A stretch of 23,802 nt of DNA from a virus, in the IMG/VR virus record IMGVR_UViG_3300013005_000170, positions 1 to 23,802 of that record, one strand, 5' to 3'. Of this stretch, positions 11,121-19,708 are shown piece after piece. The position numbers were made by a program, and so were the translations under genes. The first letter of the stretch is position 1; the number at the start of each line of letters is the position of its first letter. The notes beneath the pieces were generated by a model. That model did no database searches and was not told the DNA's origin. It was given only the letters and a program-made list of their open reading frames with translations.

Positions 11121-11852
11121 ATGGCTGAAAACAAAAAATCATTCATCCTTTATTGTGACCAAAAAAGTGTTATTGATATGCTACCTGATGAGATTGCAGG
11201 AAAGTTATTTAAACACATTTACGCATACGTTAATGATGAGAACCCAACATCTGATGACCTACTTATCAATTTAGTTTTTGAGCCTATTAAATTGCAGCTA
11301 AAACGTGATTTATTAAAATGGGAAGGTAGTGCAGAAACTAAATCTATAAATGGTAGATTAGGCAATCTAAAAAGGTGGAATGAAGATTTACATTCAAAAG
11401 TTATTAAAAATGAGATTACCATTGAAGATGCTGAAATAATCGCAAAACATCGCAAAACATCGCATGGCGATAATTTGCAATCGCCACCTATCGCAAACAT
11501 CGCTGTAAATGTAAATGATAATGTAAATGTAACTGTAACTGATAATGTAAAAGTAAATGATATAGAACAACGCAAATTAAAATTTGCTTCAACATTAGAA
11601 ATATTTTTACCTCAATATGGTCGTGAAACTTTAAATAAATTTTATGGCTATTGGACAGAACCCAATAAATCAAATACAAAGTTTAGGCAGGAATTAGAAA
11701 AGACTTGGGACTTAAATAGAAGATTAGAAAGGTGGGTAAGTAATAATTATAACAAAGGACAAAATTTGTCCAATAAACAACCGAGCAAAATGGAATCAAT
11801 GGTTAATTCAGCAAAAGAGGCACTTAATATGATACACGATGAAAATACTTAA
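11121..11852 (+). CDS. DUF6291-like protein, replication-initiator candidate
   Basis: A 243-residue protein. Residues 1-75 (FILYCDQKSVIDMLPDEIAG, 8-27; GKLFKHIYAYVNDENP, 27-42; FEPIKLQLKRDLLKWE, about 55-70) match what I recall as DUF6291, found in replication-region proteins of Bacteroidota phages. The middle (about 105-150) is a low-complexity linker with repeated Asn-Val pairs, encoded by the iteron and AT-rich repeats described separately. The C-terminal part (LPQYGRETLNKFYGYWTEPN, about 165-184, then WDLNRRLERWVSNN) is a second domain common in such proteins. By layout it resembles lambda O, which contains the origin inside its gene. The function as initiator is inferred. Its stop codon lies in the first palindromic element. 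Confidence 0.6.
   Translation: MAENKKSFILYCDQKSVIDMLPDEIAGKLFKHIYAYVNDENPTSDDLLINLVFEPIKLQLKRDLLKWEGSAETKSINGRLGNLKRWNEDLHSKVIKNEITIEDAEIIAKHRKTSHGDNLQSPPIANIAVNVNDNVNVTVTDNVKVNDIEQRKLKFASTLEIFLPQYGRETLNKFYGYWTEPNKSNTKFRQELEKTWDLNRRLERWVSNNYNKGQNLSNKQPSKMESMVNSAKEALNMIHDENT
11439..11505 (+). repeat. ATCGC iteron array, candidate replication origin
   Basis: ATCGC occurs at 11439, 11449, 11459, 11480, 11490 and 11499, with the inverted GCGAT at 11467-11471 forming the palindrome ATCGCATGGCGAT. The first two copies are perfect 10-mers (ATCGCAAAAC). Spacings are 10, 10, 21, 10 and 9, close to the DNA helical repeat and not multiples of 3, so the repeat is kept at DNA level across changing reading frames. 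Confidence 0.6.
11504..11561 (+). repeat. AT-rich 6-nt repeats, candidate DNA-unwinding element
   Basis: A run of hexamers of the type TGTAAA, TGTAAC and TGATAA, about nine and a half units, directly after the iterons. It encodes the Asn-Val-rich linker of the protein. An AT-rich repeat next to iterons matches the layout of replication origins such as that of lambda. Confidence 0.5.
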
Positions 11853-11983
11853 CGGTTTCGGGCTTTGTGTCCGTTGGCGATTTAAAACACAAATGTAAAA
11901 TTGAAAAACAAATATTGATATGAGCAAAAAAGTTGAATTGAAAAACGAAACCGCCAATGGCACAAAACCCGTGTTATCGGCTG
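11849..11983 (+). repeat. attC-like palindromic element 1
   Basis: TTAAC + GGTTT, then an arm 11859-11883 that pairs with 11948-11971 (22 of 25 positions including one G-U, with a bulged T at 11870), then T + GTTAT + CGGCTG. The 64-nt loop holds ATG 11920. The same plan (xTAACGxTTT - stem - loop - stem - TGTTATxxGCTG) is seen at 12183-12280. The asymmetric spacers and bulge resemble integron attC sites. Confidence 0.6.
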
Positions 11984-12174
11984 CTTCTTTTAATTGGGTG
12001 AGTGTTTACATTCAGAAACCAATAGAAGGGCAAAAGGTCGCAAGTAGAATATCCAACGAGCAAGGATATGTTGGTGAGTGCATTTATACTAATGGGTATT
12101 TTGAAACTTACCGAGACCATAGAAACAGAATTGAAATAACGAGGTGGAAACACGATGAATGGGCGGCTCTTTGA
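11920..12174 (+). CDS. Cassette protein 1, DUF551-like, N-terminus read from the palindrome
   Basis: An 84-residue frame. Residues 1-20 (MSKKVELKNETANGTKPVLS) are encoded by the right arm of palindromic element 1, so the native protein may begin later: at GTG 11971 or GTG 11998-12000 region (VSVYIQKP). The rest (FNWVSVYIQKPIEGQKVASR, about 24-43; ITRWKHDEWAAL at the end) has the NWVSV...GQKV...ITRW pattern of small DUF551-like proteins. It lies almost wholly inside the first cassette-like unit (11974-12187). Function unknown. Confidence 0.5.
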   Translation: MSKKVELKNETANGTKPVLSAASFNWVSVYIQKPIEGQKVASRISNEQGYVGECIYTNGYFETYRDHRNRIEITRWKHDEWAAL

Positions 12175-12187
12175 AGTTGCCGATAAC
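11974..12187 (+). mobile_element. Integron-cassette-like unit 1
   Basis: The unit begins TTATCGGC (11974-11981) and reaches its R''-like box GCCGATAAC (12179-12187), the exact complement of GTTATCGGC, not of the box that follows in the second element (GTTATAAGC). In integron cassettes, the 5' end of each cassette matches the R'' box of its own attC because the two join when the cassette circularises. It carries one small frame. No integrase is seen in the window. Confidence 0.45.
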
Positions 12188-12280
12188 GTTTTGCGTATAT
12201 ACGAGGTACGCCTTAACGAAAATTTCAAATTATAAACAAATGCTTTTAGGCGTATCTTGTATATACGCTGTTATAAGCTG
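12183..12280 (+). repeat. attC-like palindromic element 2
   Basis: ATAAC + GTTTT, arm 12193-12212 (GCGTATATACGAGGTACGCC), 36-nt loop, arm 12249-12268 (GGCGTATCTTGTATATACGC), then T + GTTAT + AAGCTG. The arms pair over 20 positions, 18 Watson-Crick and two G-U. Same plan as element 1 but with a different stem sequence, so the structure is conserved rather than the sequence. Confidence 0.65.
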
Positions 12281-12470
12281 TAAAAATTACGACAATGATA
12301 GTAGAAATGCCAAAAACATTAGAAGATTTTAAAAAGGTGAGAGAAACAATTTTGGAACTTATGGCTAATCCATATTGCGACCAATTTATGTTTTTGTCAT
12401 TGAGTGAGAAACTTGATAAAACGGATGCCAAAATTGAGGAACTAAGCAAGTAATTTTTATTGCTTATAAC
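12271..12470 (+). mobile_element. Integron-cassette-like unit 2
   Basis: The unit begins TTATAAGC (12271-12278) and ends with GCTTATAAC (12462-12470), the exact complement of GTTATAAGC. It holds one 52-aa frame. No palindromic stem follows the final box, so the third attC-like site is missing or truncated; a phage-type promoter starts right there instead. Confidence 0.4.
12295..12453 (+). CDS. Cassette protein 2, hypothetical (52 aa)
   Basis: ATG 12295 to TAA 12451-12453 encodes 52 residues, acidic and helical (MPKTLEDFKKVRETILELMA, residues 5-24; SLSEKLDKTDAKIEELSK at the end). It fills the second cassette-like unit, as a cassette gene would. A second ATG at residue 5 is an alternative start. 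No family recognised. Confidence 0.5.
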   Translation: MIVEMPKTLEDFKKVRETILELMANPYCDQFMFLSLSEKLDKTDAKIEELSK

Positions 12471-12472
12471 TA

Positions 12473-12502
12473 TTGGATATAAGAACTTTTATTATAAATT
12501 TG
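12473..12502 (+). promoter_or_regulatory. Bacteroidota promoter (TTG-N19-TAAATTTG)
   Basis: TTG (12473-12475), a 19-bp spacer and TAAATTTG (12495-12502) match the Bacteroidota -33/-7 consensus and spacing. This is the best complete promoter in the window. It drives the gene at 12512 with a very short or absent leader (9 bases between the box and ATG). Confidence 0.65.
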
Positions 12503-12511
12503 TAACTATAA

Positions 12512-12727
12512 ATGAAAGATTTAATTATAATAAGATATACTTTTGAACCATACTTTAGTGGCTATTATGAAGATGGAAACTGGTTTAATAAAGATGGCAA
12601 AAAAATTAATAAACGTAGCTACAATGGCTGCATCTGTATTCAAGATGGGCAGCGTAGATATGGTATGAAAAAACTAAAAACATTTGCAAAAAAAATAGAA
12701 ACAACAAAAACCAAATTACCATTTTAA
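12512..12727 (+). CDS. Small basic hypothetical protein
   Basis: A 71-residue Lys-rich protein. The segment NKRSYNGCICIQDGQRRYGM (about 33-52) followed by KKLKTFAKK looks like a short beta hairpin plus helix, as in small phage DNA-binding proteins that I recall with a YNGSxxxRxGxxRYGxKKL pattern. No catalytic residues are evident. It starts right behind the promoter at 12473-12502 and two bases before the next gene. Confidence 0.55.
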   Translation: MKDLIIIRYTFEPYFSGYYEDGNWFNKDGKKINKRSYNGCICIQDGQRRYGMKKLKTFAKKIETTKTKLPF

Positions 12728-12728
12728 A

Positions 12729-13439
12729 ATGAAAACAAATAACAACCACTACTTAACTGCATTAAACTCAAAACTAATAGTTGATATGCAGCAACAAGAA
12801 CTTAAAGACCGAGTAATAAAAGTACTTGCTAAAACTTATATTGACTGCGGAAAGGTCATTGAATCAAAAGAGTTAATCAGCCTATCCAATGGAGTGATTA
12901 ATGAAATTAAGCGATACTTTATTAATTTAAAAATTGATGAATTAGACTTATGCTTCCAAAATGGTGTAAGAAAAGTTTATGGCGAATATTTCGGTTTAAA
13001 CATCGTAACCTTTCACCAATGGATTAAGTCCTTTATGGCTGAAGAAAAGCGATTAGATGCTATTAAAATACGTTCTACACCAAGAATTGAACCTATAAAG
13101 GAATACACCGCAGAAGATAAGCTAAGAATAAGGGATGAATTTATGAGTTTTCACAAATCACGTTATCTTAAATTACGTAATTTTGGTAGCTATGAAGCAT
13201 CTATTGAAAGTATTTACAAGATTTTAGTTGAAACGAATGAGGTAAGTAATATCGAGTTTAACGCTAATATTCAAGAGGCTTATGATTATGTTTTAGAAGA
13301 CTTAGAATATCAGTCTAAAACGAATGATTTATTACTGCGAAGAAAATTAAGAGCGAAGATTGAAACGCTATCAATGGAAAGCAAAGAAGTAATTAACATG
13401 GCAAAACAAATAACAATAGAAGACTTATGGAATCAATAG
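12729..13439 (+). CDS. Replication-region protein, possible helicase-loader role
   Basis: A 236-residue helical, charged protein. Residues 20-110 (ELKDRVIKVLAKTYIDCGKV, 24-43; ELDLCFQNGVRKVYGEYFGL, about 71-90; NIVTFHQWIKSF, about 91-102) match a protein type I recall in Bacteroidota phage replication regions. The C-terminal half is a long basic helical region. It follows the initiator candidate, as lambda P follows lambda O, which suggests a loader role; no ATPase (Walker) motif is present. It overlaps the MazG-like gene by 13 bases. Confidence 0.5.
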   Translation: MKTNNNHYLTALNSKLIVDMQQQELKDRVIKVLAKTYIDCGKVIESKELISLSNGVINEIKRYFINLKIDELDLCFQNGVRKVYGEYFGLNIVTFHQWIKSFMAEEKRLDAIKIRSTPRIEPIKEYTAEDKLRIRDEFMSFHKSRYLKLRNFGSYEASIESIYKILVETNEVSNIEFNANIQEAYDYVLEDLEYQSKTNDLLLRRKLRAKIETLSMESKEVINMAKQITIEDLWNQ

Positions 13440-17299: not shown

Positions 17300-18039
17300 T
17301 TGTTAAAGTAATACCGAGTAAAATTGCTAATGAGTTTGTAAAGAAGCATCATTATAGCGGTAAGGTAGCCGCAACAGGTTTAATTTGTTTTTGTGCTTTT
17401 TTAGATAATAAAATAATTGGGGTTGCACAATGGGGAAGACCTATAAATAAATATTTACATTTACATTTAATTGAAAATACAAAATGGAATGATTTTTTAG
17501 AATTGAATAGATTAGTATGTATTGATGACACTCCTAAAAATACTGAAAGCAGATTTATAAGTATTTGTTTATTGTTAATTAAAAAAAATGCACCACAAGT
17601 AAAATGGGTAATGAGTTTTGCAGATGCTACGCAATGCGGAGATGGTACGATTTATAGAGCAAGTGGATTTGTTTTGACAAACATAAATGATAGTAAACAA
17701 CTTTATGAATTACCAAACGGAGAAACTTTACATTTAATGGGATTGCAAGGCGGACAGCACGGAGCATTAAGAAAAAAAATGTTAGAAAGTGGTTATGGTA
17801 ATGCTAAAAAATTTATGGTTGAGGTTTTAAAAGGAAAACCATTAGTAGGTAAACAATTAAAATACATCTACCTAATAGACAAAACCTGCAAAATAACCGT
17901 TCCAATATTACCATTTAGCAAAATAGATGAAATGGGAGCAGGAATGTATAAGGGTAAAAAAATAACCCTACAAGAGCGTAAGGTTATAAATGAGAGCGGT
18001 GCAATAGATTCGAACTTAACCTCTAACTTGGAAAGCTAG
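17278..18039 (+). CDS. Mom-family DNA (adenine) modification protein
   Basis: A 253-residue protein with the signature of the Mom family, known from phage Mu, which converts adenine to a carbamoylmethyl-type modified base and protects phage DNA from restriction. Visible blocks: FVKKHHYSGKV (20-30), IIGVAQWGRP (about 46-55), FLELNRLVC (about 72-80), NTESRFISICLLLI (about 86-99) and VMSFADATQCGDGTIYRASG (about 109-128), a GNAT-like core. The last about 14 residues (NESGAIDSNLTSNLES) are read from the strand opposite a tRNA-like sequence, so the ancestral C-terminus may lie earlier. It directly precedes the terminase genes, allowing modification before packaging. Confidence 0.8.
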   Translation: MGRAKEIIVKVIPSKIANEFVKKHHYSGKVAATGLICFCAFLDNKIIGVAQWGRPINKYLHLHLIENTKWNDFLELNRLVCIDDTPKNTESRFISICLLLIKKNAPQVKWVMSFADATQCGDGTIYRASGFVLTNINDSKQLYELPNGETLHLMGLQGGQHGALRKKMLESGYGNAKKFMVEVLKGKPLVGKQLKYIYLIDKTCKITVPILPFSKIDEMGAGMYKGKKITLQERKVINESGAIDSNLTSNLES

Positions 18040-18064
18040 CGTGCTACCATTACACTAACACCGC
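17995..18064 (-). tRNA. tRNA-Gly (anticodon TCC)-like, T-stem degenerate
   Basis: On the minus strand, 70 nt: acceptor GCGGTGT / GCACCGC (7 bp, one G-U), D-arm GTGTAATGGTAGCAC, anticodon stem CTAGC / GTTAG around loop TTTCCAA (anticodon TCC, reads GGA/GGG), T-loop TTCGAAT, discriminator T as in bacterial tRNA-Gly. The T-stem (TTAAG / CTATT) keeps only about two pairs and the variable loop is three bases, so folding is doubtful. It overlaps the 3' end of the Mom-family gene on the other strand. It is the only minus-strand gene seen. Confidence 0.65.
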
Positions 18065-18532: not shown

Positions 18533-19708
18533 ATGCTACAAAAAACAACTGCACAAGATAAGATTGCATCACTGAATAAACGCATTAGAATAGTGAGAGG
18601 TGGCACAAGTGCATCGAAGACATTCTCTATTATACCTTTCCTAATTGACTTCGCTATAAAGGAAGCTAATAGTGAAATAAGCATAGTGAGTGAAACAATA
18701 CCACATTTGCGCAGGGGTGCTATTCGTGACTTCATTAAGATTATGACAATGGTGGGGTTTTGGGATGACAGCAAGTATAACAAGTCAAGTCTAATTTACA
18801 CATTCAATAATGGCAGCTACATCGAATTTTTTAGTGCAGACAGCCCAAACAAGTTAAGGGGTGCAAGGCGTGACATTCTATTCATCAATGAGTGCAATAA
18901 CATAGACTTTGAAAGCTACTATCAATTATCAATAAGAACAAAGAAATTCATTTACTTAGATTATAACCCAGTTAGTGAGTTTTGGGTTGATACTGAATTA
19001 TTACATGATAAGGACAGCCAATTAATAACCTTAACTTATAAGGACAATGAAGCACTTGACCAATCAATCATTAATGAGATTGAGAAAGCAAAAGAAAGGG
19101 CAAAGACTTCAACCTATTGGGCTAATTGGTATAACGTATATGGACTTGGGCAAGTAGGCAGCCTACAAGATGTTATTTTTGACCAATGGAAACAGATTGA
19201 TACGATACCAGAAAGAGCCGAACTTATAGGACATGGAATGGACTTTGGATTTACGAATGACCCGAGTACACTTGTAGCAATTTATAAGTATGAAGGCAAA
19301 CTAATCATTGATGAATTACTCTACCGAACTAATATGACAAATAATGATTTGGGTAACTTTCTTAAATCAATCCAATTTGGGCGAAAGGAATTGATATGTG
19401 ATAGTGCCGAGCCAAAGTCAATAGAAGAACTAAGGCTGCAAGGTTTCAATGTTAGACCTGCGGTTAAAGGTGCAGATTCAATCAAGATAGGAATTGACAT
19501 CTTGAAACGATACGAAATACAAGTAACTAAGAACTCCACTAATTTAATAAAAGAATTGAGGGGATATACATGGGAGAAAGATAATGAGGGCAAACTAACA
19601 GGCAAACCAATAGACAGTCTAAATCATTGCGTTGACCCTATGAGATATGTAGCACTCTTAAAATTAAATAACCGACCAAGCGGAAAATATTCAACAATTT
19701 CAATCTAA
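18533..19708 (+). CDS. terL: Terminase large subunit (PBSX-type)
   Basis: A 391-residue packaging motor. The ATPase domain has Walker A GGTSASKT (23-30) and Walker B DILFINE (114-120), with LRGARRD before it. The RNase-H-like nuclease domain shows MDFGFTNDPS (about 234-243), LICDSAEPKS (about 285-294) and the late D in DSLNHCVDPMRY (about 364-375). Length is usual for PBSX-family large subunits. It packages DNA into the prohead and makes the terminal cuts. The 46-bp gap from the small subunit contains nothing I recognise. Unusually, no portal or capsid gene follows. Confidence 0.95.
   Translation: MLQKTTAQDKIASLNKRIRIVRGGTSASKTFSIIPFLIDFAIKEANSEISIVSETIPHLRRGAIRDFIKIMTMVGFWDDSKYNKSSLIYTFNNGSYIEFFSADSPNKLRGARRDILFINECNNIDFESYYQLSIRTKKFIYLDYNPVSEFWVDTELLHDKDSQLITLTYKDNEALDQSIINEIEKAKERAKTSTYWANWYNVYGLGQVGSLQDVIFDQWKQIDTIPERAELIGHGMDFGFTNDPSTLVAIYKYEGKLIIDELLYRTNMTNNDLGNFLKSIQFGRKELICDSAEPKSIEELRLQGFNVRPAVKGADSIKIGIDILKRYEIQVTKNSTNLIKELRGYTWEKDNEGKLTGKPIDSLNHCVDPMRYVALLKLNNRPSGKYSTISI

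Follow-up and report, generated by a model that had tools for sequence, protein, structure and literature searches.

We examined a short array of two hairpin-bearing units that lies between two replication-region genes of a phage, in a 23,802-nucleotide (nt) stretch of DNA (hereafter the window; IMG/VR virus record IMGVR_UViG_3300013005_000170) whose phage genes nearly all run in the same direction. The units were first noted, from the sequence alone, as resembling integron cassettes (the original prediction); comparison with other genomes and phages makes it very probable that they form a cassette array without an integrase, carried by the phage and belonging to an integron-like system that is widespread in Bacteroidota. 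The array and its neighbors, with recombination sites named attC and attI after those of integrons, are as follows (aa, amino acids; ORF, open reading frame; names beginning with L or G are our labels for stretches and records compared with the window):

11121 to 11852, plus strand: left-flanking phage gene, in an O-like position (DUF6291 / phrog_19415); its TAA stop belongs to the TAAC box
11850 to 11976, plus strand: attC-like element 1 (TAACG, stem, loop, stem, T, GTTA), 127-nt class; covariance model 112 bits, E 8e-23
11854 to 12187, plus strand: cassette A, element 1 and the gene to its right, with its own complementary box GCCGATAAC at the end
11920 to 12174, plus strand: ORF A, 84 aa; its start codon lies in the attC loop (leader MSKKVELKNETANGTKPVL), and the frame continues across the right arm as far as the cassette gene
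12179 to 12187, plus strand: end box of cassette A, GCCGATAAC, complementary to the start box of the same cassette at 11973-11981
12184 to 12273, plus strand: attC-like element 2, 90-nt class; covariance model 55 bits, E 5e-10
12188 to 12470, plus strand: cassette B, element 2 and its gene, closing in GCTTATAAC; defined by box complementarity, with a 98% identical protein in another context in L399
12295 to 12453, plus strand: ORF B, 52 aa, with homologues also known outside cassettes (L400-L402)
12467 to 12483, plus strand: attI-like site, TAAC-TATTGGATATAAG, at the right end of the array; the motif of integrase-adjacent array ends
12512 to 12727, plus strand: small conserved gene right of the array, of which some relatives hold an alternative version
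12729 to 13439, plus strand: right-flanking phage gene, in a P-like position

The boundaries of cassette A were set by analogy with other loci, in which homology ends at TAAC. No known family was matched by ORF A.

The two elements share a single plan, as originally predicted and now with refined limits: TAACG, a 4-nt unpaired spacer, stem, loop, stem, T and GTTA. Each unit begins with the exact complement of its own end box (GTTATCGGC at 11973-11981 with GCCGATAAC at 12179-12187 in unit 1; GTTATAAGC at 12270-12278 with GCTTATAAC at 12462-12470 in unit 2), and in unit 2 the complementarity of the ends reaches 21 nt at 90%. The pattern is not a product of chance, as it occurred 0 times in 100 shuffles. 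The same relationship held for 284 of 373 units from other loci, in which the own-end boxes matched exactly in the 5 variable bases, compared to 8.6 in shuffles and to 14 for the R' and R'' boxes of the same element. Thus, the complementary cassette ends of classical integrons, in which R'' pairs with R' in the circle and which the original prediction named as a hallmark, are found here, both window units included.

We scored the window elements with a covariance model built from other loci. In a set of 53 diverse elements, compensatory changes were seen at 16 of the 21 base pairs while TAACG and TGTTA were invariant, so that structure is conserved and sequence varies, as in attC sites. The spacers measure 4 nt on one side and about 0-1 nt on the other, an asymmetry that sets the orientation of the element (element 1 scores 112 bits on the plus strand and 18 on the minus strand). 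The sites depart from the classical R box, GTTRRRY with near-symmetric spacers, in that GTTA is invariant and the next bases are free (GTTATCG, GTTATAA), a partial fit that had been pointed out from the start; a search of Rfam with the window elements gave no matching family. With two elements recognized by the covariance model and no recombinase gene found in the window, the array falls under the definition of a cluster of attC sites lacking an integron integrase (CALIN), that is, at least two attC sites without a nearby integrase. In alignments, the loops of long elements contain a motif like ACnAAAnnTT every ~18-20 nt, for which a protein-binding or promoter role is possible. We also noted that cassette B (12270-12290 and 12450-12470) and a cassette with an unrelated gene at L265:1179-1513 have near-identical extended ends but neither stem nor gene in common, a picture that would fit gene swaps within a cassette shell.

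To find relatives of the window phage, we used its two flanking proteins. Between the same two flanking genes, three relatives (L005, L006, L086) have an insert of 18 nt, the window and a duplicate record of the same virus have 879 nt, and other array-bearing phages have 1194, 1418, 2063, 2090, 2664 and 2685 nt. The left flanks of the window and L004/L005 are 95-98% identical and the right flanks 87-91%, and yet, apart from the record of the same virus, no array sequence is held in common between the window and its relatives. Both edges recur around varying content, GATGAAAATACTTAAC on the left and TAAC-TATTGGATATAAG, or a sequence close to it, on the right, and the attI-like half-site is present in the array-bearing relatives with a readable array end. 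Conversely, parts of the window array recur elsewhere: the protein of gene B is 98% identical to one in a different context in L399, gene A has a 76% match behind a different element in L395, and element 1 precedes other genes in L396 and L397. Homologues of ORF B in L400, L401 and L402 are ordinary phage genes without a hairpin element, and such copies are a possible source of the cassette. Judged by these comparisons, the window units have the properties of mobile cassettes, variable among related phages at one site. At the same site, L009, L093 and L096 have an extra gene and a repeat of the C-terminal end of the left gene (...EALNMIxDEN) without a TAACG hairpin, suggesting that a second exchange mechanism may operate at this place.

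The variation at one site bears directly on whether the hairpins are instead fixed regulatory parts (terminators, mRNA processing sites or translation leaders) whose cassette-like look is secondary. That phage elements lie in the 5' region of genes and often provide a start codon fits such a role, but in relatives with matching flanks the elements and both genes are absent or replaced by others, and chromosomal copies of the elements lie at the opposite end of the gene. We rejected a fixed regulatory hairpin on the grounds that arrays vary at one site, and give it next to no probability.

We then defined the unit of exchange by comparing loci from a pattern scan that returned at least 119 genome and at least 120 viral stretches. 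The genome stretches listed were from Bacteroidota, save a few metagenome-assembled genomes (MAGs) assigned to other phyla; we set aside the proteobacterial MAG matches (L106, L146, L139, L128) as probably mis-binned contigs, given the result of the Pseudomonadota control described below. Arrays were common, with as many as eight elements within 8 kb. When two loci shared the segment to the right of an element but not that to its left, they also shared the element in 26 of 33 pairs, compared to 3 of 28 pairs that shared the left segment but not the right; two of these three are wrong-strand or unrelated hairpins. Moreover, homology edges fell at TAAC, and L265 and L322 have the same two cassettes in reversed order. 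From the pair-sharing counts and these edges, the unit is TAAC-element-gene-TAAC, cut after each TAAC. A virus (L277) and a bacterium (L150) have an identical cassette, 100% over 519 nt, an observation of which we made no use since the bacterial contig may be viral.

Could such patterns arise from phage mosaicism, by homologous or hairpin-mediated illegitimate recombination with no dedicated recombinase? Phage genomes are mosaic, we found no recombinase gene in the window record, and gene and element are uncoupled in some pairs of loci. However, the homology edges share one TAAC core, the stems are unlike in sequence and so offer no homology on which to recombine, and mosaicism accounts neither for the own-box complementarity nor for the integrase linked to the arrays and the attI motif at their ends. 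We consider this explanation very unlikely.

With the covariance model, we detected elements in 145 of 296 Bacteroidota genomes, including at least 96 elements in Flavobacterium lotistagni, compared to 1 of 200 Pseudomonadota genomes; this one positive is the centre MAG itself, which is probably contaminated. Thus the assignment to a Bacteroidota element, proposed in the original prediction as one of two sources, held up, and the elements stand beside other genes and a tyrosine recombinase, although not the classical IntI. The recombinase lay to the right of the array in 14 of 14 loci. At 11 of 11 readable ends, the last unit closed in TAAC, mostly followed by a sequence like TA-n-T-n-TATA (TAAC-TAnTnTATA), and the distance from this TAAC to the recombinase gene was 8-258 nt, mostly about 100 nt. 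An attI-like site beside an integrase is thus found at all readable array ends, as well as in phages L404 and L405. The recombinase was on the attI side in 31 of 32 arrays (P = 1.5e-8), usually convergent with the orientation of the elements. By its sequence, the right edge of the window array, TAAC-TATTGGATATAAG (12467-12483), is the same attI-like motif. The third stem, which the first reading listed as missing, is indeed absent, and its absence is expected, since the right end is an attI-like half-site and not another attC; the right boundary, placed at about 12471, was close, with the exact position at 12470/12471. On a plasmid of Chryseobacterium sp. SNU WT5 (NZ_CP041688; L371), an integrase of the type described below and five elements are accompanied by an adjacent repeated inverted sequence, GGCCAGCTCGGCTT.

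We called the array-linked recombinase at E ≤ 1e-70 in the same 296 genomes. It was present in 94, of which 82 also had elements (odds ratio 15, P = 2e-20). Classical IntI (TIGR02249), by contrast, was present in 85 of the 296 genomes and showed no such association (odds ratio 0.64, P = 0.10). The array-linked recombinase lacks the IntI-specific additional (I2) domain that is a criterion for classical integrons: in two stretches, it matched TIGR02249 at 194-220 bits compared to a cut-off of 265; the distance from KGxxDR to HxLRH was 64-69 residues in 24 measurable array-linked integrases compared to 106 in 7 IntI proteins; and in comparison with VchIntIA (2A3V), the gap between two aligned stretches was 31 rather than 73 residues. 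The best sequence matches in the PDB were archaeal XerA-type proteins. Nevertheless, while XerC, XerD and XerA have a similar domain layout and spacing without I2, in our tree the array-linked recombinases grouped with IntI, apart from the Bacteroidota Xer proteins, with support of 100/100. IntI formed its own clade; the I2-less group was not resolved as a single clade.

These associations also bear on the idea that the elements are ordinary attC sites mobilized by the classical IntI of the host, with the I2-less recombinase a bystander or in another role. Full-length classical IntI with I2 is available in the 85 genomes counted above, and one site of Polaribacter phage P12002L, which has elements of the same kind, was shown to be recombined into attI1 by IntI1 (PMC9892861), so that sites of this kind may be able to act as attC. 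However, the strong association is with the I2-less type, which is also the gene at the attI end of arrays, and the covariance model had no match in the surroundings of four classical IntI genes, nor on a class 1 integron plasmid. Mobilization by classical IntI therefore seems unlikely to us, though it is the most credible of the other explanations.

A transposase origin would be another way to account for a hairpin next to an invariant core. IS200/IS605 elements have ends organized as a hairpin plus a fixed tetranucleotide, and a similar look would be expected of single-stranded units that a transposase of the HUH/Y1 type (IS200/IS605- or REP-like) inserts on the 3' side of TAAC. In this case, though, the gene at the array end is a tyrosine recombinase of the IntI/Xer superfamily and not an HUH enzyme (no search was aimed at HUH enzymes), and R-box complementarity between unit ends is an integron feature. 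We regard this origin as highly improbable.

Among 30 array-bearing or related virus records, the recombinase was present in two, L404 and L405, where the array is followed by TAAC-TATTATATATAAG or TAAC-TACTATATG and then by the integrase, in cis; these two large phages (L404:1082-7537 and L405:1461-7652) thus have apparently complete phage integrons of the same kind. We found no recombinase match in the records of the same virus and related viruses (G512-G523), which may be fragments. Since the lineage of the window phage is without the recombinase, the enzyme would act in trans or have been lost.

We also compared the direction of cassette genes, taken as that of the longest ORF per unit, with Pfam support for samples. 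In genomes, the longest ORF pointed toward the element in 128 units and away in 7 (n = 135), whereas in viruses it pointed away in 114, including those of the window, and toward in 7 (n = 121; Fisher P = 3e-54). Because genome ORFs read toward the element, the chromosomal order from attI is the classical one, gene then attC. In phage cassettes, the gene is flipped and attC lies on its 5' side. We considered and rejected a reading in which all cassettes are inverted relative to classical integrons, since the count shows inversion in viral units only.

In phages, a start codon often lies in the attC loop. An ATG in the loop with a frame open past GTTA (long class) was present in 130 of 183 viral elements compared to 39 of 242 genomic elements; in such elements a leader, for example ...ENxxNPAFLVGAVSGS, is encoded by the right arm. 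Within a single methyltransferase family, the in-frame leaders were unrelated (L229, L284, L318 and L259). In the window, each unit has its one small frame, as predicted, except that ORF A starts inside element 1 (at 11920) and not after it. Among the phage cassettes sampled were genes for N6/N4, C5 and Dam methyltransferases and for a Mom homologue, and the chromosomal cassettes sampled had other domains; judging from these domains, phage cassettes probably supply exchangeable anti-defense and DNA-modification functions.

The original prediction explained the units as captured host cassettes or a captured related Bacteroidota element. They are integron-like, but probably not simply the product of chance capture from a host, because the phage genes are inverted, the phages have their own attI-like half-site, and the recombinase is not a classical IntI. 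The outcomes it had set against itself (units fixed in relatives, no copies beside other genes, no covariance support) were all decided in favor of cassettes.

Together, we think it likely that Bacteroidota and their phages have a second kind of integron, in which a recombinase that clusters with IntI but lacks I2 acts on hairpin sites, and that phages hold a separate pool of cassettes with flipped genes, in which attC is the source of start codons and leaders for interchangeable anti-defense genes. According to this model, the I2-less recombinase would join a folded attC with attI at the TAAC/GTTA core, and circular cassettes would be inserted beside attI. The recombinase would be supplied by the host or by another element infecting the same cell, and a minority of phages would encode it in cis; on the window array, it would act in trans. 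The flip of the gene would align cassettes with the rightward reading of the phage operon and place attC as their 5' leader, and might also make the recombinogenic strand the coding strand, exposed in phage transcription or lagging-strand synthesis.

Several observations weigh against this model or narrow it. A search of IMG/VR for the empty site predicted from an exact join, AAATACTTAACTATTGGATATAAG, gave no match. Array-less relatives lack not only the attI-like site but also the gene at 12512-12727, and we did not identify the host or donor of the window phage's own cassettes. Gene and element can uncouple, as the gene was shared but the element was not in 6 of 33 pairs, and in a single array (G170) the integrase is on the other side. 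In 63 genomes, there were elements but no strong integrase match. The pattern scan was seeded on one element subfamily, the recombinase tree includes few outgroups, and the support for recombination is entirely comparative.

Two other features of the window concern the phage itself. A tRNA-Gly gene (17994-18064, minus strand) lies on the strand opposite to the phage genes. The large terminase (18533-19708) is closest (55%) to those of Flavobacterium psychrophilum phages such as FpV9, a likeness pointing to a Flavobacteriia-like host.

The system we describe resembles integrons, including sedentary chromosomal integrons, in its arrays of one-gene cassettes between structured sites, complementary cassette ends, attI-like site by a tyrosine recombinase, classical gene-to-attC polarity on chromosomes, and numbers of elements per genome, which reach at least 96. 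It differs in its I2-less recombinase, below the IntI cut-off; in sites with invariant TAACG and TGTTA, an unpaired spacer on one side only and a partial GTTRRRY; in an integrase usually transcribed toward attI; and in the inverted genes of phage cassettes. Treponema integrons also have intI transcribed toward attI (PMC3607928) and are similar in the direction of chromosomal cassette genes, but their intI is classical. CALINs in phages were already known (Qi et al. 2023, PMC9892861), and they are similar in being integrase-less arrays in phage genomes with methyltransferase cargo; the elements of P12002L have the same orientation to genes as in the window phage. The text consulted describes no inverted polarity, attI-like end or associated I2-less integrase. 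Little was reported for Bacteroidetes with IntegronFinder 2.0, with only one complete integron in Bacteroidetes proper (PMC9024848), and Bacteroidota are not among the taxa covered by the attC models of PMC8352920. As a separate observation, full-length classical IntI, at its frequency in our 296 genomes, is far commoner than complete-genome surveys suggest. In searches of an open-access collection (most subscription papers and preprints lie outside it), we found no report of an I2-less array-linked recombinase or of flipped phage cassettes, and the integron-like system of the window array is apparently undescribed so far.

The I2 helix has been seen as the innovation that enabled integrons and the use of folded single-stranded attC sites, although direct proof is said to be missing (Escudero et al. 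2020, PMC7790495). With a natural relative that has no I2 and is linked to attC-like arrays across about half of Bacteroidota genomes, this question would become directly testable, and such a relative would bear on the origin of integrons. The system would probably escape surveys in which the IntI-specific domain is required. The flip in orientation between chromosomes and phages, with attC as a protein-coding leader, would be an adaptation of cassette mobility to phage operons that is apparently unreported, and it points to an exchange of DNA-modification and anti-defense genes that is specific to phages.
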